NCBI GenBank assembly: GCA_028279555.1
Contig: JANQNO010000002.1
Span: forward strand, 1 to 64,000
DNA from: Sphingorhabdus sp.
Lineage (GTDB): Bacteria > Pseudomonadota > Alphaproteobacteria > Sphingomonadales > Sphingomonadaceae
Reading direction: 5' to 3'
Length of the DNA stretch: 64,000 nucleotides
Shown here: one piece after another, positions 41,861 through 55,520 of the stretch
Position numbering within the stretch: the stretch's first letter is position 1
Layout of the letters: each line of letters opens with the position of its first letter
The notes under the pieces: model-generated
Told to the model about the DNA's origin: nothing
The model's database searches: none
What the model saw: only the letters and a program-made list of their open reading frames with translations
Position numbers and translations under genes: made by a program

Positions 41861-43501
41861 TCAGGCCATTTCGCTGGTTTGCGCCAACGCCATTGCCTTT
41901 GCCCCCTTATAGTCGGGTTTGCCATTGGCGGCGCGCGGTACGGTATCGACCATGACATAGCCGCGCGGTGCCTTATAATCGGCCAGCCGCCCGCGCACAT
42001 GGTTCTTGAGCGTATCCGGCTCGATCTCGCCCCCGCCGCTCGCCGATATGACGGCGGTAACGCGCTCACCGAAGCGGTCGTCCGGTACGCCCACGACCAG
42101 GCAATCATTAACGCTGTCATGCGTCTTGAGCGCCTCCTCGACCTCTTCGGGGAAAATCTTCTCACCGCCGCTATTGATGCAGATCGAACCCCGGCCGAGC
42201 AGAGTGATGGTTCCGTCCGCCTCGATCGTCGCATAGTCGCCGGTGATCGAATAGCGCACGCCATCGAAAGTCGGGAATGTTGCGGCGCTCTTTTTTTCGT
42301 CCTTGTAATAGCCCAGCGGCACCATGCCGCCATTGCAGATCAGCCCCTTTTCGCCCGAACCCGGCTCTACTTCGCGCCCGTCTTCGGTGAGGATTTTGGT
42401 GGTATCGTTAAGCTCGAATTTTGCGGTCTGGCCGATGCCGACATTTTCGCGTGTGGTCACCGACACGCCCATGCTGCCCTCGGTCGCGCCGATGCTGTCG
42501 AGGATGGCGATGTTCATATGTTCGAGCAGGCCTGCCTTGTTTTCCGCCGACCACATAACGCCCGACGAGCTCATCTTGGTGAGCGAGGAAGTGTCATAGG
42601 GCTCGCCGCGTTCTTTTGCCGCATCAAGCGCAGCGAGCAGCGGCTTGGCAAAAACATCGCCGACGATGGTGAGATCGCTCGCCTTTTCCTTTTCCACCAA
42701 CTGCCAGACCGGATCGGGATCGAAATGCCTGTTGTCGAACAGGATGACCGCGCCGCCAGCGGCATGCGGGATCATCGCGCCGATCCACATGCCGGTGCCA
42801 TGCATCAACGGGCAGGCCGGAATTGACTTGGGCAGCATGCCCGCAGCCTGCAGGCGCAGCACGCAGGCACCGAAATCATCCGGTCCGGCAGGCGGCTCCA
42901 GCCCCAGCACTTCGAAACCCCGGCCCATCAGAGCGCCGGCAAAAGTCTTGTGATCATACATCACGCCCTTGGGCATGCCCGTCGTGCCGCCGGTATAGAG
43001 CATGTAGATGTCATCTTCGCTGCGCTCGATAGCAGGCATCGGGTCAGCAGCCGCCAGCGCGCCTTCATAATCCACCGCGCCATCGAGAGATTCGCCGCTG
43101 CCATCATCGATCTGCAGAAACAGTTTCACGCCGGGAATCCGGTCGCGAATGGCGGCAACAACGGGCGCGAAGCGGGCCTGAAAGACGAGCGCTTCGCTGT
43201 CGCTATTCTCGATGATGTAAACAAGCTCGTCTTCGAGATAGCGGTAATTCACGTTGATCGGGCACAGCCGCGCTTTGAAGGCGGCAAATTGCGCTTCCAT
43301 ATATTCGGCGCAATTATGCGCATAGAGTGCAATCTTGGCACCGGGTTTCAGGCCATATCCGGTATAGACCTGCGCCAGCCTTGCCGCCCGGTCTTCATAT
43401 TCGCGCCAGCTATAGCGCCGGTCGCCCTGCACAATCGCCGGTTCGTCCGGAACAGCGCGCGCAACATTTTCCCAAATATCTGCCAGATGCCATGCTGCCA
43501 T
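41861..43501 (-). CDS. Acyl-CoA synthetase (AMP-forming) inserted between nusG and rplK
   Basis: The 546-residue adenylate-forming enzyme activates a carboxylic acid to its CoA thioester. The AMP-binding P-loop [11 protein letters not shown] is at about residues 169-179, with [13 protein letters not shown] as the A5 motif and the C-terminal [42 protein letters not shown]. It resembles long/medium-chain fatty-acid or bile/steroid-type acyl-CoA ligases of alphaproteobacteria; the acid cannot be inferred. It is flanked by ordinary spacers (99 nt to nusG, 199 nt to rplK) and shows no repeat or integrase. Confidence 0.92.
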
Positions 43502-44182: not shown

Positions 44183-44401
44183 TTAGTTGGCGAGATCGAG
44201 CAGCGCATTGACGACGCCCGAAAAGACGGAGTCAATGCCCAGGAAGAAGATCGCAAGGATCGTCGTCATAATAAGCACCATGATCGCCGTCTGGACGGTT
44301 TCTCCGCGCGTAGGCCAAACCACCTTGCCGACTTCCGAGCGCACCTCGCGCATGAATTTGCCGGGGCTCGTCTTCTGCTTTTTGACGTTGGTATCTGCCA
44401 T
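44183..44401 (-). CDS. secE: Preprotein translocase subunit SecE
   Basis: SecE is the essential clamp of the SecYEG channel. The 72-residue single-helix form has the conserved KFMREVRSEVGKVVWPTRGETVQTAIMVLIMT stretch (amphipathic helix then hinge) and a C-terminal membrane helix. It heads the secE-nusG transcript; no tRNA-Trp lies directly upstream as in many genomes. Confidence 0.96.
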   Translation of the reverse strand: MADTNVKKQKTSPGKFMREVRSEVGKVVWPTRGETVQTAIMVLIMTTILAIFFLGIDSVFSGVVNALLDLAN

Positions 44402-44543
44402 GCTCTCGCTTCCTGTCTGCTTCGCTTCCCGGGATAAGCGCCATCGCTCCGACCAGCGGGGTCGAGAGCGATATAGGTTCCGATTTCGGAAAGCGCTAGG
44501 GCATTAGCCGCAGATTCGCGGTTAGGCAAGGGCAGAGTCGCGC

Positions 44544-45119
44544 TTAGCGCGCCCGATTGGCGGCGATGATTTCACCGATCCAGGGCAAATGCTCGCGGCC
44601 GACAAAAAGCTGCTCGTCAATCACATAGGCGGGGGCATCGATCACGCCGCTTTCCATCGCGGCAGACTGGATAGCTGCAAGCTTTTCCCTCGCCTTGGCA
44701 AAGCCGGCAGTGTCTGCGCCCACCTCGGCCAGCAGCGCGCTGACCACGGCTTCATCGTCCAGGTCGGCCCCCCGGACCCAATAGGCAGCGAAGGCAGCCT
44801 GAATAAATTCCAGCGGGTTACCATCATAAGCAGCGAGCGCGGCAAGCGCGGCTTCCGACCCCGGCATGGGGTCAGGGAAGCGCATTTCACGGCCCAGCGC
44901 CTTTGCATAAAAAAGATGCGTATCGCGCTGCGCTCTTGCCCTTACCCTCCGATGCCGCTCGCCAACGGTTTCGTCTGACTTTTCGGGTGGAATATTGAAA
45001 GGGCGCGTAGAGAATGGGAGCCACTTGGTTTCAACGCCGGTTTCCTCGATCAGCGCGATTGTCGGCTCCAGCGCCAGATAGGAAGCCGGTGATTTGAAAT
45101 CGATAAAGATAGTCAGCAT
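44544..45119 (-). CDS. DsbA-fold protein, 2-hydroxychromene-2-carboxylate isomerase-like (copy 1)
   Basis: The 191-residue thioredoxin-like protein begins MLTIFIDFKSPASYLALEPTIALIE, the Ser-containing kappa-class GST/HCCA isomerase opening without CxxC. The helical insertion includes HLFYAKALGREMRFPDPMPG, and the end is DAPAYVIDEQLFVGREHLPWIGEI. Kappa-type enzymes use glutathione to isomerise ring-cleavage products, but the true substrate here is unknown. Its start overlaps the stop of the second DsbA-fold gene by 7 nt, so they are co-translated. Last of the four-gene operon that starts at 47167. Confidence 0.85.
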   Translation of the reverse strand: MLTIFIDFKSPASYLALEPTIALIEETGVETKWLPFSTRPFNIPPEKSDETVGERHRRVRARAQRDTHLFYAKALGREMRFPDPMPGSEAALAALAAYDGNPLEFIQAAFAAYWVRGADLDDEAVVSALLAEVGADTAGFAKAREKLAAIQSAAMESGVIDAPAYVIDEQLFVGREHLPWIGEIIAANRAR

Positions 45120-45805
45120 GGCGGGAGACCATCCTTGCCGATGCCGTAAGCGATGTCGGGCGCGGGTCCATCGCGGCCCGACAAATGCCAGCGCAAATAG
45201 GGAATATGCTCGCGGCCGAACAGGATGTTGCCACCCAAAACAAAAGTCGGCACGCCATATATGCCTGCCGGATGGAGCTGCGGCTGCAAAGCATCATGCA
45301 GGGCGCGCCCATCACCCTGCTGAAACGCATCAAATCCTGCGGGATCGATCCTGGCCTGTTGGAGGCAAGCCTCGACAACCGACACATCCTCGATGTCCAG
45401 CTCACGCCGCCAGAAGGGCGGATAGACTGCGTGAAGATATTCGCCCAGCCGGTCGCGCGCCGTCTGCATCGCCCAGAAAATTCCGATATTGGCGATGCTG
45501 CTGTCCCAGATTTTCTCGGTGCCCTTGAGGATCAGCCCCTGCCGCTCGGCATAACGCCGCGCATCTTTATAGGCATATTTGACCATCGCCCATTGGGTCG
45601 ACGATCGTTTGCTCTCGACGACCTTGCCCTTTTTCTTGCGCGCAGATCCCAGATAGCTTGGAATATCGAGGGTGAGTGGCCGCCAGTCGAATTGCAGGTT
45701 AAGCTGCTCCTCAAGAGCCAGTAGCGGGCGGTAGGCGGCAAAGGCGTAGGGACTCTTGATGTCGATATAGACGATCAGGGGCGCGTCGCTTTCCAGGGCT
45801 TTCAA
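45113..45805 (-). CDS. DsbA-fold protein, 2-hydroxychromene-2-carboxylate isomerase-like (copy 2)
   Basis: The 230-residue relative has VYIDIKSPYAFAAYRPLLALEEQL at the start, in which SPYA occupies the GSH-binding Ser position, and VPTFVLGGNILFGREHIPYLRWHL near the end. An Arg/Lys-rich loop (YLGSARKKKGKVVESKRSSTQW) is an insertion not seen in copy 1. It starts 1 base inside the upstream gene (ATGA overlap) and overlaps copy 1 by 7 nt. The two copies are clearly related but have diverged, which suggests different steps or a heterodimer. Confidence 0.83.
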   Translation of the reverse strand: MKALESDAPLIVYIDIKSPYAFAAYRPLLALEEQLNLQFDWRPLTLDIPSYLGSARKKKGKVVESKRSSTQWAMVKYAYKDARRYAERQGLILKGTEKIWDSSIANIGIFWAMQTARDRLGEYLHAVYPPFWRRELDIEDVSVVEACLQQARIDPAGFDAFQQGDGRALHDALQPQLHPAGIYGVPTFVLGGNILFGREHIPYLRWHLSGRDGPAPDIAYGIGKDGLPPC

Positions 45806-46263
45806 GCGGGTTTCTCCCTCGGCCGGTTCGCCAGCCCGCCATGGTCCTGCGCCGAACGCCAGATTTGCACCTCATGGTCGATCAGACGCCATTCGAATTG
45901 GCCTTCGCTGTTTGGGCGCTTTTCCAGCCTGCTCTTGTAAAGCCCGCGTAGCTGAACCAGCTTACCCTTGCCCTTCGAATGGCCGTCCGCGTCATAATAG
46001 GCCTCGGCGCTGGCAACATGCCCGTCAATCTCTATGAGCGGCGTGTAAAGACAATGGCGCAAACCCTCGACAGGATCACGCATCTTGGCAATCCATTTGG
46101 AAAAGCCCGCCCTTGCTTCATCGACGCCATGATGCAGGTTGCCGCTGAAATCGAGGCGGCAATCGTCCCAGAAAAAAGCGGCTATCTCGTCAGCCGATCC
46201 GCGATCGACCGCAAAGCAATAGCGTGCAAACAGATTCTGGATCTGTTCATGGTCCGATGACAA
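45802..46263 (-). CDS. SnoaL/NTF2-like protein
   Basis: The 153-residue protein of the SnoaL-like/NTF2 fold (DHEQIQNLFARYCFAVDRGSADEIAAFFWDDCRLDFSGN) has the cone-shaped pocket pattern DCRLDF...ARAGFSKWI...LRHCLYTPLIEIDGHVASAEAYYDADGH. Members act as isomerases, dehydratases or small dioxygenase-beta-like subunits. It sits between a 2OG dioxygenase and two DsbA-fold enzymes in a tightly packed operon (4-nt overlap with the next gene), which supports a shared catabolic role. Confidence 0.82.
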   Translation of the reverse strand: MSSDHEQIQNLFARYCFAVDRGSADEIAAFFWDDCRLDFSGNLHHGVDEARAGFSKWIAKMRDPVEGLRHCLYTPLIEIDGHVASAEAYYDADGHSKGKGKLVQLRGLYKSRLEKRPNSEGQFEWRLIDHEVQIWRSAQDHGGLANRPREKPA

Positions 46264-46282
46264 GGCTTGCTCTCCCGCGGCG

Positions 46283-47167
46283 TTAGCCGAGTTTCTCTAA
46301 CATGCGCGCAGGATGCATGCCATCGACATAGCCCATGAAGGGCAGGTGGATATTATATCCCAGCAATTCTTGCACACGTTTGGGAAAGCCGGCGACCTTT
46401 TCCGGCGATACGGCGATCAGCTGCTGTTCCAGCGGGCGGCACCATCCCTTGCAGAATTGCGGTGTGACGATGAGCCGCGGAGCATCGCTGTCATTCGCGC
46501 CGCCGCGGTGCCATAGCGTACCTTTGGCGATCATCAGAGATCCAGCGGGCATGGTGGCCTTGATCGCCTGAAAATGATCGTCGCTCTTTTCGCTGCCGCC
46601 ATCGATCCGGCCGGTGATGAAGTCTTCTGCCTGATTGGCTCCATCGGGCTGTTCCTCGCCCCATTTGTGGCTGTCGGGAATGATCTCGGTCGCGCCATTG
46701 TCGCTGGTCGTGTCGCTGATCGACCAGAAGGTCGACATGGAAAGCGGTTCGCGCGGGCGGGCGAGGCCGCAATGGCTGTCGTCGAAATGCCAGGGCTGCG
46801 CGGTTTCACCGGGCAGCAGGTTGATGGCGAGGCAGGCGTAGAGAAGCACGCTTGCGCCGAGTTCGCGCTCGGCAAAGGCCAGCTGCAAGGGATGCGAAAT
46901 CAGGTCGGCAAAAACCGGATCCTTGTCGAGCATCGCATAGACGCGATTGGAATCTGCGCCTTCGAAATTGTTGCGCCCGCGAATATCGGCATCGATCCAT
47001 GGCTTGAGCGCCGCGCGCTGGACCTCCAGCTCCTCCGGCGTCAGCACATTTTCAAAGATGACATAGCCCTCTTCCTGAAACTGCTCCCAGGCATCGTCGA
47101 AGCTGCGACCACCTAGCCACGGCGTCAGGTCGACATCTGTTAATTCAATACTTCTGGCGACATTCAC
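46283..47167 (-). CDS. Phytanoyl-CoA-dioxygenase-family (2-oxoglutarate/Fe(II)) protein, GTG start
   Basis: GTG at 47167 has GGAG 8 nt upstream and gives 294 residues; the frame to 47212 runs into the promoter/operator. Iron ligands are His127-Phe-Asp129 (PWHFDDSHCG) and His220 (TLWHRGGAN), and Arg231 is the likely 2OG-binding residue. The double-stranded beta-helix and N-terminal helix FQEEGYVIFENVLTPEELEVQ match PhyH. It is the first gene of the operon and faces a TetR gene. The substrate is unknown. Confidence 0.9.
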   Translation of the reverse strand: MNVARSIELTDVDLTPWLGGRSFDDAWEQFQEEGYVIFENVLTPEELEVQRAALKPWIDADIRGRNNFEGADSNRVYAMLDKDPVFADLISHPLQLAFAERELGASVLLYACLAINLLPGETAQPWHFDDSHCGLARPREPLSMSTFWSISDTTSDNGATEIIPDSHKWGEEQPDGANQAEDFITGRIDGGSEKSDDHFQAIKATMPAGSLMIAKGTLWHRGGANDSDAPRLIVTPQFCKGWCRPLEQQLIAVSPEKVAGFPKRVQELLGYNIHLPFMGYVDGMHPARMLEKLG

Positions 47168-47215
47168 GATATATTCTCCACTAGATGAGGCCGTTATCCG
47201 AATCATTATCAAAAC

Positions 47216-47237
47216 TTTGAATTGAATTCAATTCAAA
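47216..47237. promoter_or_regulatory. Perfect 22-bp palindrome, likely TetR operator
   Basis: The half-site TTTGAATTGAA followed by its complement forms a perfect 22-bp palindrome (47216-47237, centre GAATTC), lying between the divergent PhyH and TetR genes, about 49 nt from one start and 48 from the other. Size and position suit a TetR dimer site controlling both directions. Confidence 0.8.
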
Positions 47238-47284
47238 AATGCGCTAGAGCTTTCGGTGTAAATACGGAAAGGCTGGTTTTTGGG

Positions 47285-47896
47285 ATGGCGGCTGCGGCGC
47301 AAAGCAAAGACAGGGCGGAGAAAAAAGTCATGCGCGCGGCCAGAATATTGGCGGCGGCGGAACGGCTCTTGCTGGCTAATGACGGCGAGCTGGAGATGAG
47401 CCAGGTTGCGGAGGAGGCCAGCGTCTCGGTGGGGCTGGCCTATCACTATTTCGGTTCGAAGTCGGGAATGCTCGGCGCGATCATCGACGCCTTTTATGAT
47501 CGCTACAATGCGGTGGTGAACCAGTATATCGATCCCGACATCAATTGGGGCGTGCGCGAAAAGGACAGGCTGCTCGCCTCTATCAATTTTCTCTATAGCG
47601 ACGCGATGGCACCCATGGTTCTCGGCAAGATGGCGCAGACGCCGCAGGTGGTCGCCATCGAGGCGGCGCGCCAGCAGGAAATGATCGAGCTGGCGACGCG
47701 CAATATCCGCTCGGGAATGAGCAGGGGACATCTCAATCCGCATATCGATCCCGACATAGCCGCCGCCGCGATCACAGGGGCCATGCGTCAATGCTTCATC
47801 CACGCCTTTGCCATGAAACCGCGGCCCGATGCGGAATTGCTCGCGCAGCAACTGTGGGGTTTGATCTCCGGCGCGGTGGGGCTTTCCAAGCGTTGA
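47285..47896 (+). CDS. TetR-family transcriptional regulator
   Basis: The product has 203 residues from the ATG at 47285, downstream of GGAAAGG; the frame opens at a TTG inside the palindrome. The HTH is at about residues 36-58 (EMSQVAEEASVSVGLAYHYFGSKSGMLGAIIDAF), followed by a helical ligand domain with a TetR_C pattern (LYSDAMAPMVLGKMAQTPQVVAIEAAR). Facing the PhyH operon over a palindrome, it is most likely a repressor that senses a substrate or intermediate of that operon. The ligand is unknown. It is followed by purT. Confidence 0.92.
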   Translation: MAAAAQSKDRAEKKVMRAARILAAAERLLLANDGELEMSQVAEEASVSVGLAYHYFGSKSGMLGAIIDAFYDRYNAVVNQYIDPDINWGVREKDRLLASINFLYSDAMAPMVLGKMAQTPQVVAIEAARQQEMIELATRNIRSGMSRGHLNPHIDPDIAAAAITGAMRQCFIHAFAMKPRPDAELLAQQLWGLISGAVGLSKR

Positions 47897-47946
47897 GCCT
47901 GCGCAGCGCTTTGCAAAGCGGCATCGACACATTATCCATCGCTTCC

Positions 47947-49149
47947 ATGAGTCACATTGTCAAAATCATGCTGCTGGGGAGCGGCGAGTTGGGCCGCGAA
48001 TTCGTCATTTCGGCCAAGCGCCTCGGCGCATATGTCATTGCCTGCGATAGCTATGACCATGCGCCGGCGATGCAGCTGGCGGATGATCGCGAGGTGTTTT
48101 CGATGCTCGACGGCGACGCGCTGCGCGCGGCCATCGAAAAGCATGATCCGGACTATATCGTCCCTGAGATAGAGGCGATCCGCACCGAGATACTGGCCGA
48201 GATGGAAGCGGAAGGGCGCAACATCATCCCAAGCGCCAAAGCCGCACAGCTCACCATGAACCGCGACGCGATCCGCGATATGGCCGCCAAAGAACTGGGT
48301 CTGCGCACTTCGGGTTATGAATATGCCGAAAGCCGCGAAGAAGCGCTCGCCGCCGGTGAAAGGCTCGGTTTCCCGCTCGTCGTCAAGCCGGTCATGTCAT
48401 CATCGGGCAAAGGCCAGAGCAAGGCGAATGACGCCAAAGAGCTGGGCGAGGCCTGGGACTATGCGGTGGCCAATATGCGCGGCGATCGGGCCCGCGTGAT
48501 CGTCGAGCAATTTATCGATTTCGACTATGAAATAACCCTGCTTACTATCCGCACGCAAGATGGCGTTCGCTTTTGCTCGCCGGTCGGCCACCGGCAGGAG
48601 CGCGGCGACTATCAGGAGAGTTGGCAGCCCGCCGCCATGGCGAAGGCGGATCTGGAGCAGGCGAAAGCGATGGCTGCGCAAGTGGTTGAGGCCCTGTGTG
48701 CCGGAAACAAATGGGGCTACGGCTTGTTCGGCGTCGAATTTTTCGTGTGCAAGGATGGCGTGGTCTTTTCCGAGCTCTCGCCGCGACCGCATGATACCGG
48801 CATGGTGACGCTGATTTCGCAGCAGCTCAACCAGTTCGATCTGCATGCGCGGGCCATTCTCGGCCTGCCGATCCCGCATCAGGATGGCTCGATTGCCATG
48901 GCAAGCGAGGCCGCCGCCAGCGCGGTCATATTGGCCGACCGGGATTGCGAAAAATTCAGCTATCGGGGCATCGATGATGCGCTTGCCTTGGGTGGGAGCC
49001 AAGGCGCGGTCGATATCCGCATTTTCGGCAAGCCCGTGACGCGGCCCTATCGCCGCATGGGGGTTGCTCTTGCAACGGGCGGCGATATCGGAGCTGCTCG
49101 ATCGCTGGCGGCCGAGGCGGCCGGGAAGGTCATTATCAACTATCGCTAG
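47947..49149 (+). CDS. purT: Phosphoribosylglycinamide formyltransferase 2 (formate-dependent)
   Basis: PurT is an ATP-grasp enzyme that uses formate to formylate GAR in purine synthesis. It has 400 residues from the ATG at 47947. MLLGSGELGREFVISAKRLGAYVIACDSY, EIEAIRTEILAEME, KPVMSSSGKGQSKAND, GLFGVEFFVCKDGVVFSELSPRPHDTGMVTL and FDLHARAILGLPIP are PurT landmarks. It lies 50 nt after the TetR gene in the same direction; a functional link is not implied. Confidence 0.96.
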   Translation: MSHIVKIMLLGSGELGREFVISAKRLGAYVIACDSYDHAPAMQLADDREVFSMLDGDALRAAIEKHDPDYIVPEIEAIRTEILAEMEAEGRNIIPSAKAAQLTMNRDAIRDMAAKELGLRTSGYEYAESREEALAAGERLGFPLVVKPVMSSSGKGQSKANDAKELGEAWDYAVANMRGDRARVIVEQFIDFDYEITLLTIRTQDGVRFCSPVGHRQERGDYQESWQPAAMAKADLEQAKAMAAQVVEALCAGNKWGYGLFGVEFFVCKDGVVFSELSPRPHDTGMVTLISQQLNQFDLHARAILGLPIPHQDGSIAMASEAAASAVILADRDCEKFSYRGIDDALALGGSQGAVDIRIFGKPVTRPYRRMGVALATGGDIGAARSLAAEAAGKVIINYR

Positions 49150-49169
49150 TGTCAAACGGACCCTGTCAA

Positions 49170-50036
49170 ATGTACCAAAAACTAAGCGAGATTAACCGCA
49201 GACCCGCTCTTTTTGAACGCTATACGGCAGAATCGCTGTGGGCCGATGAGTATAGGTCAAAGCGGATGCTGGCCTTCCATCTGAACGAAGCGATTGATGT
49301 GTCATCGCGGAACATTCAATCGATTGATGCTGCCGTTTCCTGGATAGTGGGCAAATTTGATCTAGGGCCTGGCAAATCGCTCTGCGACTTTGGTTGCGGA
49401 CCGGGGCTCTATACGTCGCGTTTTGCGGCGTCGGGGGCGGAGGTGACGGGTTTAGACTTTTCTGCAAACTCAATTCGATATGCCCGTGAACAGGCTGATC
49501 GCGCCAAGCAGAAGATCAACTATATCCACACAAACTATCTGGAGTTTGAGCCCACCGATCAGTTCGACCTGATCACCATGATCATGTGCGATTTTTGTGC
49601 CCTCAGCCCTTCACAAAGGAAACACCTGCTCAATCTGTTTGACCAATGCCTGAAGACAGATGGCGCGATCCTTTTGGACGTATATTCAATGGCTGCTTTT
49701 TCCGAACAGGAGGAAGCCAGCTATCATGAGAAGAATCAACTGGATCATTTCTGGTGCGAAGAGGACTATTTTTGTTTCGTCAACCGGTTCAAATATGACA
49801 GCGATGCCGTTTTTTTGGACAAGTATGACATCTTTCCAGAAAATGGCGGGGCTGAAACGGTCTACAACTGGCTGCAATATTTCAGCCCTGACAGTTTGAG
49901 CGGCGAGTTGGAAGCCGCAGGTTTCGCCATCAAGGACATCTACGCAGACGTTGCGGGCAATGCCTTTTCAAAACAGCATAGCGAGTTCACGGTTGTCGCG
50001 ACGAAAACGAGGGCCCGGCCTGATGTCAGCTGTTGA
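49170..50036 (+). CDS. Class I SAM-dependent methyltransferase
   Basis: The 288-residue product starts at the ATG at 49170 (MYQKLSEINRRPALFERY), the usual opening of this group; a GTG at 49149 is an alternative. Motif I is LCDFGCGPGLYTSRFAASGAEVTGLDFS (about 71-98), and motif II-like MIMCDFCALSPSQRKHLLNLFDQCLKTDGAILLDVYS follows. Related proteins occur in distant bacteria including firmicutes. Codon usage is more AT-rich (AAA, AAT, TTT) than in its neighbours, hinting at acquisition. Its last 11 bases overlap the opposing aldehyde dehydrogenase gene. Confidence 0.85.
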   Translation: MYQKLSEINRRPALFERYTAESLWADEYRSKRMLAFHLNEAIDVSSRNIQSIDAAVSWIVGKFDLGPGKSLCDFGCGPGLYTSRFAASGAEVTGLDFSANSIRYAREQADRAKQKINYIHTNYLEFEPTDQFDLITMIMCDFCALSPSQRKHLLNLFDQCLKTDGAILLDVYSMAAFSEQEEASYHEKNQLDHFWCEEDYFCFVNRFKYDSDAVFLDKYDIFPENGGAETVYNWLQYFSPDSLSGELEAAGFAIKDIYADVAGNAFSKQHSEFTVVATKTRARPDVSC

Positions 50037-51408
50037 TTACGATCATCTTCTCGATAGTCATTTCATGCATCGTGTAGGGGATGCCGCCAACGCCGTGGCC
50101 CGATTGCTTGAGCCCGGCAAATGGCATCCAGTCGACGCGAAAAGCCGAGTGGTCGTTCACCATAACAGCTGAAGCGTTGATGTTGCGATAGGTGTGCATT
50201 GCTGCGTTCAGATCGTTGGTGAAAACTGCAGCCTGAAACGACAGGTCGAGAGAATTGGCCTGCGTGATCGCTGCATCGACATCATCGTAGGAATAAAGGC
50301 ACACGACCGGCCCGAAGACTTCATTCTGCGAAATCGTCGCATCGGCGGACGGGTCAAGCAACAGGGTCGGCGCATAGGTTGTCTCGGAGAGCTTATCTCC
50401 GCCGCAAAGCAGCTGCGCTCCGCCCTTGACCGCCTCTTCGACCCACTCGGCCACGCGCTCGACTTCCTTTGGACGGATCAGCGGCCCGCATTCGGTGTCT
50501 TCGTCGATCGCATTGCCAACCTTGAGCGCCTTGGCGCTTTCAGTGAGTTTCGCCGCCAAATCATCAATGACGGAGCTATGCGCGAAGACGCGCTGCACCG
50601 ACACGCAAACCTGGCCCGAGTGATAAAACCCGCCCTTGGTCAGATGCTGCACCGCCGCGTCGATGTCGGCGGTGGCGTCAACGATCACCGGTGCTGCGCC
50701 GCCATGCTCGAGCGCGCACCGCGTGCCCGGAGCCAGTTTTGAACGAAGCATCCAGCCAACGCGCGCCGAACCAATGAAGCTGAAAAAGGCAACGCGCGGA
50801 TCTGTCACCATCTTCTCGGCTACGTCCACATCGCAGGCTGCGGCCTGGCACAATGCAGGAGGAAGCCCTGCCTCGTGCAAGATCGAGACGAATTCGAAGC
50901 AGGAAAGCGGGGTGTCTCCCGCTGGTTTTACGATCACCGGGCATCCTGTGGCAACGGCAGGAGCGACCTGATGGACGATCAGGTTGAGCGGGTGATTGAA
51001 GGCCGAAACTGCGACCACTGGACCGATAGGCTCGCGCATGGTCCATGCCATGCGGCCATCGCCGGCTGCAGTCAGCCCCATCGGGATTTCTGTTCCCTTC
51101 AGCGCGCCCAGCTCGTGAATGCACAGTTCCATGCCATTGATCGCGCGGTCAACCTCGACTCGTGCATCGATCAGCGGCTTGCCGCCCTCATTGGCGATCT
51201 GGAAGGCGAGATGCTCACGCCGTTCCTGCATGATCTTCATGGCCTTTTGCAGGATTGCAGCGCGCTCATGCGGTTTCATCCAGGCCGAGCGGTCCTCGGA
51301 AAACTGCTTCGCTTGCGTCAGAAAAGCATCGATATCTGCCCAGTCGCTTGTGGGAACGCTGCCGATGACCGACAGATCGAAAGGGTTGACGACTTCTTGC
51401 ATATTCAC
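50026..51408 (-). CDS. Aldehyde dehydrogenase family protein
   Basis: The 460-residue NAD(P)-dependent enzyme has Asn138 (AFNHPLNL), the general-base Glu234 in LEHGGAAP (His in place of the usual Leu), and catalytic Cys268 in GQVCVSVQR. It begins 19 nt after the acetolactate-synthase-like gene on the same strand, forming a pair. That pairing recurs in several proteobacteria, suggesting that the ALDH acts on a product of the TPP enzyme. The substrate is unresolved. Confidence 0.9.
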   Translation of the reverse strand: MNMQEVVNPFDLSVIGSVPTSDWADIDAFLTQAKQFSEDRSAWMKPHERAAILQKAMKIMQERREHLAFQIANEGGKPLIDARVEVDRAINGMELCIHELGALKGTEIPMGLTAAGDGRMAWTMREPIGPVVAVSAFNHPLNLIVHQVAPAVATGCPVIVKPAGDTPLSCFEFVSILHEAGLPPALCQAAACDVDVAEKMVTDPRVAFFSFIGSARVGWMLRSKLAPGTRCALEHGGAAPVIVDATADIDAAVQHLTKGGFYHSGQVCVSVQRVFAHSSVIDDLAAKLTESAKALKVGNAIDEDTECGPLIRPKEVERVAEWVEEAVKGGAQLLCGGDKLSETTYAPTLLLDPSADATISQNEVFGPVVCLYSYDDVDAAITQANSLDLSFQAAVFTNDLNAAMHTYRNINASAVMVNDHSAFRVDWMPFAGLKQSGHGVGGIPYTMHEMTIEKMIVINS

Positions 51409-51427
51409 ATCCTTCCCATCGGATCGA

Positions 51428-53086
51428 TCAGAGCTTTGCGCTCAATTCCTTTATGTCATGATTGAGGATTTGGTCGTTTTCGCTGTAGTCGACCGGGCAA
51501 TCGATTAGATGCACACCCGGCGTGTCGCGGCAATGCGCGAGGAGCTCCGTCAGATGCTCGGACGATTCGACCCGATGCCCCTTCGCGCCGTAACTCTCCG
51601 CATATTGCACGAAATCCGGGTTGCCATAAGTCAGTCCGAAATCATCGAAGCCCATATTGGCCTGCTTCCAGCGGATCATGCCATAGGCGTCATCGCGCAG
51701 GATCAGCACGGTCAGATTGAGACCGAGGCGAACAGCGGTCTCCATCTCCTGACTGTTCATCATAAAGCCGCCGTCGCCGCAGATCGCCATAACCTTACGT
51801 TCTGGGTAAAGCATTGCGCTCATCATCGCCGATGGCAGGCCAGCGCCCATCGTCGCCAGCGCATTATCGAGCAGTACCGTGTTCGGCAGATAGGCGGTGT
51901 AGCCACGCGCAAACCAGATTTTGTAGATGCCGTTATCGAGGCAGATAATTCCGTCTCGCGGCATGCAGCCGCGCACTTGCTTCACCAGATGCGGCGGGAA
52001 GATCGGGAAACGCGTATCGGCGGCGAGCGTGCCGGTATGCTCCAGTTCAGCCTGATGATATTCGAGAATTTGATCAAAATTCCAATCACGATTGGGGCTG
52101 ATGTCTTCCTTGATCTGCCAGATCGCATTGGCGATATCGCCGATTACTTCGATCTGCGGAAAATACACCGGATCGACTTCGGCAGTCTTGGTCGAAACGT
52201 GAATCACAGTAACGCCGTTATCTTTCATGAAGAAAGGCGGTTTCTCGATCACATCATGGCCGACATTGATAATACAATCGGAAGCCTCAACCGCGCGATG
52301 TACAAAATCGCCCGCCGACAAGGCCGCGCAGCCGAGGAATTTCGGATGCCGTTCGTCGATCACACCTTTGCCCATCTGGGTTGTCAGGAAGGGAATGCCG
52401 GTCTTCTCGACAAACTGCTCCAGCATCCGGCCCGACAGTCTCCGGTTGGCACCCGCGCCGATGATGAGTACCGGGTTTTCGGCGGATTCAATCGCCTCGA
52501 CTGCCCTGCGAACGGCTTTCTCTTCCGCCGATGGACGGCGCGCAACGCTCTTGGGCAAGGGCTTGAAATCGGTAGCTTGCTCTTCGGCGATATCTTCGGG
52601 CAGCTCGATCAGAGTCGCACCGGGTTTCTCCTCTTCAGCCAGCCGATAGGCTTCGCGCACGCGGCTGGGCAAGTTATCACCAGCCGCGATCTGCACCGCA
52701 TATTTGGTCACCGGCTCCATCAGCGAAACGACGTCGAGAATCTGGAATCGGCCCTGCTTGGATTTCTTGATCGGTTTCTGACCGGTAATCATCAATACGG
52801 GCATCCCGCCGAGCTGGGCATAAGCAGCGGAGGTCACAAAGTTCGTCGCGCCGGGGCCGAGCGTCGCCAGGCACACGCCTGTCTTGCCGGTATGACGCCC
52901 ATAGGTCGCGGCCATGAAACCAGCGCCCTGCTCATGGCGGGTCAGGATGAGCTTGATCTTGTCTGACTTGCCCAGCGAGTCGAGAAGATCGAGATTCTCT
53001 TCTCCGGGTACACCGAAAATATACTCGCAGCCTTCAGCTTCGAGACAATCGATGAATACGTCAGATGCTTTTTTGGTCTCGGTCAC
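51428..53086 (-). CDS. Acetolactate-synthase-like TPP-dependent enzyme, GTG start
   Basis: The product has 552 residues from GTG at 53086 (GGAGGACAGGAAAA upstream); the frame continues to 53134. Glu52 (TRHEQGAGFMAA) activates TPP, and the TPP/Mg motif is GDGG at 437-440 (ICGDGGFMMNSQEMETAV) with RDDAYG. The central domain has GAGANRRL. It is not linked to a small subunit (ilvN), and the ALDH neighbour points away from branched-chain amino acid synthesis. A role in acetolactate, glyoxylate carboligase-like or alpha-keto acid metabolism is possible. Confidence 0.9.
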   Translation of the reverse strand: MTETKKASDVFIDCLEAEGCEYIFGVPGEENLDLLDSLGKSDKIKLILTRHEQGAGFMAATYGRHTGKTGVCLATLGPGATNFVTSAAYAQLGGMPVLMITGQKPIKKSKQGRFQILDVVSLMEPVTKYAVQIAAGDNLPSRVREAYRLAEEEKPGATLIELPEDIAEEQATDFKPLPKSVARRPSAEEKAVRRAVEAIESAENPVLIIGAGANRRLSGRMLEQFVEKTGIPFLTTQMGKGVIDERHPKFLGCAALSAGDFVHRAVEASDCIINVGHDVIEKPPFFMKDNGVTVIHVSTKTAEVDPVYFPQIEVIGDIANAIWQIKEDISPNRDWNFDQILEYHQAELEHTGTLAADTRFPIFPPHLVKQVRGCMPRDGIICLDNGIYKIWFARGYTAYLPNTVLLDNALATMGAGLPSAMMSAMLYPERKVMAICGDGGFMMNSQEMETAVRLGLNLTVLILRDDAYGMIRWKQANMGFDDFGLTYGNPDFVQYAESYGAKGHRVESSEHLTELLAHCRDTPGVHLIDCPVDYSENDQILNHDIKELSAKL

Positions 53087-53246
53087 TTTTCCTGTCCTCC
53101 CAATAGGCCGGCGGGCCAGCTTGCATTGCAGCATGCAACGCTTCGGTGTTCGCTAGGTGTCACGATTTGGTTACTCTGCAGGCATCAGACAACGCAGATT
53201 GGAAAAGCGATTGGCAGGGCAATAACTCTGCAGGGTGCAGCCTTGG

Positions 53247-55292
53247 CTATTCTTCTTGCGCGTCCTTTTTCAGATATTTGTTGAACCAGGCAATCGTATA
53301 ATCGGTCTTCGCATTGAGGCGTGATGGCCGGCCGGCAATCCCGTGATTTGTATCGGGAAGCCTCACCATCACACTGGGAATCTGGCGCAGCTGCAGTGCC
53401 TGATAGAATTGCTCGGTTTCAGAGATCGGCGTGCGCCAATCCTCTTCGCCTGTGATCAGCATGGTGGGCGTGGTGACATTGCCGACCAGCGACAGCGGCG
53501 AGCGCTCCCAATAATGATCGAGATGCTCCCATGGTGGCCCTGGGAACTGGTTGGCGATCTGCCCGATATAGCTGTCTGCCGTCAGCACTTTCGAAACCCA
53601 GTTGATCACCGGCTTCGCCGCCACTGCGGCATTGAAACGGTCGGTCAGGCCAATCGCATAGGCGGTTGCGATGCCGCCTGCCGAGCCGCCCGCGATGAAC
53701 AGATTGTCCTTGTCGGCAAAGCCATTGTCGATGGCCCAGTCCACGGCCGACATATGGTCGGCGAAATCGTCGGGACTTGAATATTTGTATTTGAGCAGAT
53801 TGGCGAACTCGCTGCCATAGCCGATCGATCCTCGGTGATTGTCGTAAATGACGACATAGCCGGCCGCCGCCATGCGTTGAAGCTCGGCGGAAAAATGCGG
53901 TCCGTAGGCGAGATGCGGGCCGCCGTGAATTTCGATGATCAGGGGATATTTTTTCCCCGCCTGATAGCCTGGCGGCGTGATCATCCACCCCTGGATTTCG
54001 AGCCCGTCCAGCGAGGAGTTATAGGTAAATTCGCGAAGCTGGCCGAGATCGCGGTGCGCGAGGAGCTCTTCATTGAGCGCGGTCAGCCGCCGTGTCCGGC
54101 CGCTCTTGTAGGCATAAAGGTCCGCCGGGCGATAGGCGCTGCCCTTGGTATAGACCAGACTGCCGCCCGGCCCGGCGTCATAGGTGCCGCTGACATAGGG
54201 CCTGCCGATGGATGTACCCCCGATGCCCTTGACGGCGACCCGGCGCTTTCCGTTCACATTGACAGCGCCGATCATGTTTTCGCCGCGATGCTGATAGGTG
54301 AATGCCAGTTCGCGGCCCGTGAGCCATTGCAGATTGCCGGCCCGCCGGTCCAATGTCCCGGTCAGATTTTTCTGATTGCCGCCGTCGCGATCCATCAGGA
54401 AGACCGAGCTTGGCACAAAAGGCACCCTTTCGTTGCTTGTCCGCAGATAGGCAATGTGACGGCCACTCGGCGAAACTCGGGGGCTGGATTCGACGCCGGG
54501 CATATCGGTGATCTGGGTCAGTTTGCCGCTATTGACATTGACCGAGAAAATATCCGCCTCGCGGCTTTGCAGTTCCCAACCCGGGTCGCGGTTGGCGGAA
54601 AACAGGATCTCCTGCCCGTCGGGCGTGAAAGACAGCCTTCCGTCATGGTGAAAATCCCCGCTGGTGAGCTGGCGGGCCGTGCCGCCTTCCGCAGGGAGAA
54701 TGAAAATATGGTCATAGGCCAGTTCCTGAAAGCCCTGGGCGTTGGTGCGATAGCGAGCACGATCGATAACCTGCGCCGGCTCGGCCCATTTTGCGCCTTT
54801 CGGTTTCTTGGCCGGGGTGATGAGCCTTTCGGCCTTCTTCTTCACCGCCATGGAAAAGGCGAGCGCGCTACTATCCGGTGACCAGGTGAGGCCGTTCGGT
54901 CTCTCCTCGAAGCTGTTCAGCAGCGCATCGCGGCCCGAAGAGAGATAGTGCATATACAGGGCGGAGCGCCCCTTGTCGCTCTTCAGATAGGCAATACGCG
55001 TGCCATCCGGCGACCAGCGCGGCGATGAATATGACCCATCCTCGGCCAGCAGGGGTTCATGCTTGCTGCCTTCCAGATCGGAGAGCCAGACATGCGACCG
55101 CGTCCTGTCCGTCATGATATCATTGGACCGGCGCAGATAGAGCACCTGCTTGCCATCGGGCGATATCTGGGGGCCATCTGCCCATTCGAGTTCGAACACA
55201 TCGTCTGGCGAAAACAGCCGTGGATTATCCTCAGCTTGCGCCTGAGTGCCGAAACTCATCGCCAGAAGCAGGACGGGTATGGTTCTTTTCAT
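53247..55292 (-). CDS. S9-family (prolyl oligopeptidase-type) peptidase, secreted
   Basis: The product has 681 residues from the ATG at 55292 with a signal peptide (MKRTIPVLLLAMSFGTQAQA). The longer frame runs through the tRNA gene and cannot be right. The N-terminal half is a WD-like beta-propeller (GTRIAYLKSDKGRSALY, SPRVSPSGRHIAYLR); the C-terminal hydrolase has GGSAGGIATAYAIGL with the catalytic Ser, Asp in TGEEDWRTPISETEQF and His in DTNHGIAG. It is probably a periplasmic acylaminoacyl/dipeptidyl-type peptidase. The GGSAGG elbow lacks the usual Tyr. Confidence 0.92.
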   Translation of the reverse strand: MKRTIPVLLLAMSFGTQAQAEDNPRLFSPDDVFELEWADGPQISPDGKQVLYLRRSNDIMTDRTRSHVWLSDLEGSKHEPLLAEDGSYSSPRWSPDGTRIAYLKSDKGRSALYMHYLSSGRDALLNSFEERPNGLTWSPDSSALAFSMAVKKKAERLITPAKKPKGAKWAEPAQVIDRARYRTNAQGFQELAYDHIFILPAEGGTARQLTSGDFHHDGRLSFTPDGQEILFSANRDPGWELQSREADIFSVNVNSGKLTQITDMPGVESSPRVSPSGRHIAYLRTSNERVPFVPSSVFLMDRDGGNQKNLTGTLDRRAGNLQWLTGRELAFTYQHRGENMIGAVNVNGKRRVAVKGIGGTSIGRPYVSGTYDAGPGGSLVYTKGSAYRPADLYAYKSGRTRRLTALNEELLAHRDLGQLREFTYNSSLDGLEIQGWMITPPGYQAGKKYPLIIEIHGGPHLAYGPHFSAELQRMAAAGYVVIYDNHRGSIGYGSEFANLLKYKYSSPDDFADHMSAVDWAIDNGFADKDNLFIAGGSAGGIATAYAIGLTDRFNAAVAAKPVINWVSKVLTADSYIGQIANQFPGPPWEHLDHYWERSPLSLVGNVTTPTMLITGEEDWRTPISETEQFYQALQLRQIPSVMVRLPDTNHGIAGRPSRLNAKTDYTIAWFNKYLKKDAQEE

Positions 55293-55444
55293 GATGGACC
55301 CCGAAATAGCTGTTACATTTATGCTGGCTTGCGCAAAAAACCGCCGGTTGGCAACAAAAAGAAATCGCTGGACGCATGCCGACCCTCGATTTCGCGAGCC
55401 ATAGCAATGCGCACATTCGCAGATAGCAGGTGTTGGCTGGAAAA

Positions 55445-55520
55445 TGGCAGGGGTGACAGGATTCGAACCCGTGGCCCTCGGTTTTGGAGACCGATGCTCT
55501 ACCAACTGAGCTACACCCCT
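55445..55520 (-). tRNA. tRNA-Trp (anticodon CCA)
   Basis: The 76-nt cloverleaf is complete: acceptor AGGGGTG/CACCCCT, D-arm GCTCAGTTGGTAGAGC, anticodon stem with CGGTCTCCAAAACCG (anticodon CCA), T-arm GGGTTCGAATCC, discriminator G and encoded CCA. It lies between the TonB-dependent receptor and the S9 peptidase, both on the same strand. Confidence 0.97.

Follow-up and report, generated by a model that had tools for sequence, protein, structure and literature searches.

We analysed a window of 64,000 nucleotides from a Sphingorhabdus genome (contig JANQNO010000002.1, positions 1 to 64,000), in which a minus-strand operon for a PhyH-type Fe(II)/2-oxoglutarate (2OG) dioxygenase, a SnoaL_4/NTF2-like protein and two DsbA-fold proteins (DsbA-A and DsbA-B) faces a divergent TetR-family gene across a perfect palindrome (Table 1). 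We read these five genes as an oxygenase cassette that moves horizontally and is under local control, with a probability of roughly 0.58. The reading is carried by a candidate operator that accompanies its regulator from genome to genome, and by an empty site in a genome of the same genus. Genomes are cited below by G numbers and loci by L numbers.

The tie between regulator and palindrome was assessed over 80 PhyH loci from named genomes, selected for their resemblance to the PhyH of the window and hence biased towards its kin; 74 of these have at least 0.7 kb of upstream sequence and 60 are fully visible. With TetR scored as present within 1.6 kb and an operator site at up to 2 mismatches, both elements are present at 17 of the 74 loci and both absent from 57, and there are no mixed cases. 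One of the six shorter loci, L036, also has the site, its contig beginning 7 bases before it. The exact 20-mer core of the palindrome occurs in 7 of 397 genomes of the family, once in each and always between a TetR gene and a phyH operon, while a scan of the class found a site with at most 1 mismatch in 3 of 385 genomes, all beside a TetR of this family. Over the two scans 9 genomes carry the operator (the window genome in both), every site next to a family TetR and an oxygenase gene; the palindrome is thus not scattered over unrelated promoters. The association also survives divergence of the proteins: in G417 and G429, from a second family of the order, TetR is 41% and PhyH 57% to 58% identical to the window's and the operator is still exact, and the exact operator with PhyH holds down to 35% TetR identity. 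More generally, TetR relatives at 35% to 70% identity adjoin the same operator and an oxygenase gene. On the Xanthobacter flavus conjugative plasmid pDCA, which also bears a haloalkane dehalogenase, a TetR-PhyH pair has a 3-mismatch site. Loci L154 and L158 are exceptions to this conservation. The co-occurrence (17 of 17 against 0 of 57), conserved beyond the neighbourhood, supports the proposal of an earlier note on this DNA that TetR controls the operon through a palindromic operator, and we consider it very likely, judging from sequence, that TetR autoregulates and controls phyH via this predicted site.

In the window, the palindrome TTTGAATTGAATTCAATTCAAA is exact over its 22 bp, as the earlier note had it; the likely start of PhyH is 48 nt away on one side and that of TetR 47 nt away on the other. 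Its inner 20-mer consists of two TTGAA pentamers facing two TTCAA pentamers, an arrangement that would suit two repressor dimers. The window has no second site with up to 3 mismatches and the assembly only this one exact site; the 20-mer core likewise has no further site with up to 3 mismatches anywhere in the assembly. Since a palindrome of at least 22 bp arose in 1 of 60 first-order random sequences of window size, its length is by itself only moderately unusual, and the case rests on position and conservation. Scanned with a simple sigma-70 pattern, the stretch separating tetR and phyH gave no promoter-like match.

The regulator is not confined to PhyH. Searching the class with the TetR profile at E 1e-20 gave 7 of 385 genomes, and in all seven the TetR gene adjoins an oxygenase gene: PhyH in the window genome (G000), G727, G729 and G945, and a Rieske oxygenase in G838, G899 and G929, that of G838 being typed from its 62% identity to the G929 protein. 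Sites with up to 2 mismatches precede four of these seven TetR loci; the gene rows are TetR-PhyH-fatty acid desaturase in G727 (exact site) and TetR-Rieske oxygenase in G929 (one mismatch). At L027, from the window's own family, a Rieske gene, a PhyH gene and a caspase-domain gene all lie behind the palindrome, which ties the two oxygenase types together. At L157 the row is TetR, Rieske, DsbA-fold protein and glutathione S-transferase (GST), with a Rieske protein 47% identical to that of L027; BLAST at 1e-3 did not match the L157 DsbA-fold protein to the window pair, of which it is a distant relative at most. By sequence comparison the conserved core is TetR, predicted operator and oxygenase, with SnoaL and the DsbA pair as lineage-specific additions. 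As the same kind of TetR and operator stands before Rieske genes with or without PhyH in other lineages, the sensed chemical class is probably shared and the oxygenase interchangeable. Two observations on neighbouring genes are recorded separately. At 28 loci, some of which represent one genome twice, another Rieske-type gene (L031:3278-4522 and equivalents) is located about 2.5 kb from PhyH; it occurs with or without TetR and is 26% to 33% identical to the TetR-linked Rieske genes. In a pair of sphingomonads a Peptidase_C14 caspase-domain gene directly follows PhyH (L027:8620-10266 and L032:7901-9559), in one of them just before SnoaL.

Evidence for a mobile segment comes from the same-genus genome G403 (L160), where BLASTN homology covers the secE side as far as 44518 and picks up again at 47945, ahead of purT; only 75 bp separate the two parts there. 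This empty site makes the five genes a discrete presence/absence segment of 3.4 kb between secE and purT. In other genomes of the genus, searches found PhyH (E 1e-20) in 0 of 3, the exact 20-mer in 0 of 10 and TetR (E 1e-15) in 0 of 24. The cassette has a GC content of 57% to 60%, no different from its flanks, and we therefore dropped any judgement of foreign origin from composition. The stretch from secE to tRNA-Trp (window 44401-55445) spans about 11 kb here, against a single 3.5-kb locus with nusG in three other genomes of the genus (L165, L166 and L178), and holds differing PhyH versions in different sphingomonads (L070, L074, L077 and L174), like an exchange hot spot. An acyl-CoA synthetase gene (window 41861-43501) stands between nusG and rplK, which are neighbours in relatives such as L031.

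Table 1. Features of the cassette, in window coordinates.
Feature	Coordinates	Strand	Basis
TetR-family repressor, 203 aa, ATG start 47285	47285..47896	+	Pfam TetR_N PF00440, E 3.2e-9
PhyH-type Fe(II)/2OG dioxygenase, 294 aa, GTG start 47167	46283..47167	-	Pfam PhyH PF05721, E 2.7e-25
SnoaL_4/NTF2-like protein, 153 aa, TTG start	45802..46263	-	Pfam SnoaL_4 PF13577, E 2.1e-19
DsbA-fold protein A, 2-hydroxychromene-2-carboxylate (HCCA) isomerase/kappa-GST-like, 230 aa, TTG start	45113..45805	-	Pfam DSBA
DsbA-fold protein B, 191 aa, paralogue of A	44544..45119	-	Pfam DSBA
22-bp perfect palindrome, proposed TetR operator	47216..47237		Symmetry, position, conservation
Whole five-gene segment	44519..47944		Absent from same-genus genome G403

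The families that the earlier note had assigned to the four minus-strand genes and the divergent TetR agree with Pfam, and the coordinates fit. Of its stop/start overlaps two hold, one of 4 nt between SnoaL and DsbA-A and one of 7 nt between DsbA-A and DsbA-B; PhyH and SnoaL do not overlap, a 19-nt gap following the PhyH stop. For PhyH, the GTG at 47167, 3' of GGAGAA, is the most likely start and that of the longer open reading frame less likely; relatives starting MNVA... agree with the 294-residue protein. For TetR, the most likely start is the ATG at 47285, and the alternative TTG at 47222 falls inside the palindrome.

The window's PhyH is, from its residues and predicted model, very probably an active 2OG dioxygenase. 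The HxD...H iron triad and the 2OG arginine (H127, D129, H220 and R231) are kept in 28 of 28 rows of one alignment, and the catalytic residues in 40 or 41 of the 41 rows of a second, these counts drawing on 28 and 41 of 91 PhyH rows. The predicted model matches the jelly-roll folds of known 2OG dioxygenases. Within the listed families to which the comparison was limited, the nearest solved folds act, by their entry titles, on polycyclic compounds and not on acyl-coenzyme A (acyl-CoA). The fungal enzymes SptF, PrhA, AndA and FtmOx1 and the oxygenase 8zyb are likewise PhyH-type Fe(II)/2OG dioxygenases, 21% to 24% identical to the window protein, which unlike them has its own C-terminal motif, GYVDGMHP. 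Among human proteins only PHYHD1 matches (E 9e-4, in a listing up to E 0.01), a match that does not bear on the substrate. This PhyH subfamily occurs widely in marine and other bacteria, and we found no characterised member of it. On a PhyH tree of 85 rows (quick search, no bootstraps, stop signs in matches set to X; L034, L090, L102, L107 and L109 left out as partial or near-duplicate), TetR presence changes 9 times, against about 20 times when shuffled, with long branches making deep placements unsure. The window genome has a second, distant PhyH match (contig C1, 126102-126572; 32% identity), and a PhyH relative at 45% (L105) sits in a metagenome bin titled Klebsiella pneumoniae, a title that may be wrong.

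DsbA-A and DsbA-B are paralogues with 26% identity, and both match DSBA PF01323 (E 2.9e-13 and 4.2e-12). The profile of DsbA-A matches the HCCA isomerases 3fz5 and 2imd (E 3.7e-4); single-sequence searches of the PDB with DsbA-A, DsbA-B and SnoaL gave nothing at 0.01. The CxxC active site of DsbA disulfide oxidoreductases is absent from both proteins, and DsbA-B lacks cysteine altogether. In HCCA isomerases and kappa GSTs, a serine at the CxxC position activates glutathione. A KSP motif is found in both window proteins, and its Ser18 in DsbA-A aligns with a serine of 2imd, which we take to be NahD. DsbA-A thus resembles this branch in its profile match and in having an active-site serine in place of the thioredoxin cysteines; the window differs in that its proteins are two diverged, overlapping paralogues and in that the operon has no naphthalene genes.

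In the mechanism we propose, TetR would sit on the palindrome midway between tetR and phyH, perhaps as two dimers, and shut both promoters, as position, symmetry and conservation suggest. A hydrophobic compound would bind TetR and open the operon, and PhyH may then oxygenate that compound or its product. The DsbA-fold proteins, to judge from their serine type and missing CxxC, could work with glutathione, either isomerising the reactive product or trapping it, and the SnoaL_4 protein would be, at a guess, an accessory enzyme. The hydroxylation followed by isomerisation that the earlier note suggested is a plausible reading of such a pathway. Whether the purpose is catabolism rather than detoxification is for us an even bet. 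The strongest competing explanation, somewhat less probable, is a detoxification or resistance system, in which the oxygenase and the glutathione enzymes would inactivate a hydrophobic toxin made by algae, sponges or competitors. Local TetR control is the usual set-up for resistance genes, and here it is joined to glutathione-type enzymes in one small operon that is present or absent among related genomes; Pfam typing inside the operon found no uptake, CoA or central-pathway genes. The same typing found no efflux or transport gene there, which speaks against a resistance system, as does the fact that PhyH often stands alone.

How far the five genes belong together is a separate matter. The earlier note had made conservation of the neighbourhood a test of its reading, and the neighbourhood is conserved for TetR-PhyH and not for the whole set. 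All five genes are complete in only 3 of the 60 fully visible loci, SnoaL occurs in 5 and the DsbA pair follows PhyH in 15; we therefore rejected the five-gene set as a conserved unit. The pairing of an oxygenase with glutathione-type enzymes, also put forward there, does recur, in the L157 row. A further clue is the exchange of genes in front of the same DsbA pair. The flanks of L031 and L050 are 91.6% to 94.6% identical, yet TetR-PhyH-SnoaL in one corresponds to another PhyH (68% DNA identity) in the other, and this other PhyH before the DsbA pair lacks TetR. The same swap is seen between L033 and L052 at 92% to 93%, and between L031 and L110 and L124 and L051 at 77% to 85%. Together with L157, these swaps favour, short of proving, a functional link between the oxygenase and the glutathione-type enzymes, and we lean slightly towards the oxygenase and the DsbA pair acting in one pathway.

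The other possibility, which we regard as unlikely, is that TetR-operator-PhyH and the DsbA pair are two independent units sharing a permissive spot upstream of secE. The pair is seldom found: of 396 genomes of the order, 8 have DsbA-A at E 1e-20. In favour of two units, it adjoins PhyH in four of these (G000, G153, G203 and G243) and lies away from it in the other four. Of the 13 fully visible TetR loci, moreover, 7 have PhyH and no DsbA genes, and the secE/nusG flank holds other PhyH versions in L070, L074 and L077 (56% to 59% identity) and in L174. The 4-nt and 7-nt overlaps in the window argue for a single unit, as do the DsbA pair standing right behind PhyH in two separate PhyH clades and being kept across the cassette swap, and the separate TetR-Rieske-DsbA-GST row. 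In relatives, DsbA-B follows DsbA-A.

Several of our results weigh against the cassette reading itself. In three of the genomes with DsbA-A away from PhyH (G278, G455 and G461) PhyH is elsewhere in the genome, and G180 has none at E 1e-15; the DsbA pair comes directly after a gamma-glutamyltranspeptidase gene in G278 (24 nt, L132) and in other places in G461 and G180, while G455 has DsbA-A alone, at 50% identity. TetR and operator are both missing from L035, where PhyH, SnoaL and the two DsbA genes are present, and from L044, which belongs to the same clade; 38 of the 60 fully visible PhyH loci have no TetR, SnoaL or DsbA gene at all. Some operators have diverged: the G838 site has 3 mismatches and the G899 site, TTGAGTTGAGCTCAATATAA, has 5, with both left pentamers altered identically. 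Beside the PhyH-TetR pair of G945 no operator within 5 mismatches was found, and a 39% identical TetR on a Rhodococcus ruber plasmid, lying among transposases and integrases, is accompanied by neither a site at up to 5 mismatches nor a PhyH gene over the 10.5 kb covered. G397 (L174), one of the 24 same-genus genomes above, has a different PhyH (57% identical) near nusG without the cassette's TetR, so that this may just be a place where PhyH genes accumulate. For DsbA-A, the AlphaFold model is poor (pLDDT, the predicted local distance difference test score, 48.9) and unfit for structure search, and the fold of this protein therefore rests on profile matches.

Least probable is a lipid pathway. 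Here PhyH would act on a lipid of the fatty acyl, phytol or glyceryl-ether type, through alpha-oxidation or by cleaving the ether, and so release an aldehyde and, depending on the host, glycerol as well. In its favour, 17 Halieaceae-type loci have an aldehyde dehydrogenase gene behind PhyH, the gene clusters of the L084 glycerol kinase and acyl-CoA dehydrogenase recur in 18 and 19 loci (only L084 was typed), PhyH directly adjoins a fatty acid desaturase gene in Parasphingopyxis and L146, and phytol side-chain alpha-oxidation has been proposed from annotation for SAR86 PhyH (PMC11582366). Against it, the window operon has none of these genes, such PhyH are 47% to 57% identical and lack TetR, their loci are related and so represent few independent events, and the polycyclic substrates of the nearest solved folds point elsewhere. 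Alkylglycerol ether cleavage, suggested by the Halieaceae-type gene order, was not adopted on its own and is kept as part of this alternative; literature titles and abstract openings yielded no bacterial 2OG enzyme for that reaction. We also did not adopt alpha-oxidation via a thiamine diphosphate enzyme, the class to which the 2-hydroxyacyl-CoA lyase linked to phytanoyl-CoA hydroxylase proper belongs, and aldehyde dehydrogenases at 50 to 53 kb in the window. The former (51428-53134) scores far over the cut-off for acetolactate synthase PRK08322 and is unmatched in other PhyH loci (E 1e-5), and the latter are only about 30% identical to those beside PhyH elsewhere. At L084, the glycerol kinase (above the GlpK cut-off) faces the acyl-CoA dehydrogenase, which could mark ether-lipid or other glycerol-releasing chemistry. 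The desaturase-family genes abutting PhyH at L057:6091-7897 and L146:6995-8799 are 39% identical; in one of these two lineages the gene lies upstream of PhyH, in the second downstream.

Among known systems, isoprene (iso) gene clusters have a diiron monooxygenase and canonical GSTs, whereas the window operon has a PhyH dioxygenase and neither soluble diiron monooxygenase genes nor canonical GSTs. The comparison would be one of working principle, oxygenation followed by a GST-type step (PMC4676930). In Novosphingobium a PhyH gene lies beside LuxI (PMC3704786); the likeness is a PhyH next to a regulatory gene in sphingomonads, and the difference is that the circuit there is LuxI/LuxR and the arrangement convergent. 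One plasmid-borne PhyH that neighbours an acyl-homoserine-lactone synthase gene (H17) shares only 26% identity with the PhyH of the window. In a literature search whose scope excluded most subscription journals, we found no paper containing the operator string, joining any three of PhyH, HCCA isomerase, SnoaL and Sphingomonadaceae, or joining PhyH and TetR in Sphingomonadales.

We tentatively suggest that TetR, together with its (TTGAA)2-(TTCAA)2 operator, represents a sensor family not described before, which would detect one class of hydrophobic compounds. In several alphaproteobacterial lineages and on a conjugative plasmid it would stand before oxygenases that can replace one another (PhyH, Rieske, both, or PhyH with a desaturase), and in some lineages glutathione-dependent DsbA-fold and GST enzymes would complete an oxygenate-then-glutathione pathway. 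Two unrelated iron chemistries, 2OG and Rieske, would then be under the same kind of switch. Given the tight tie between operator and regulator, the operator is usable as a genomic tag and offers a handle on the inducer, and hence the substrate, of this PhyH subfamily.

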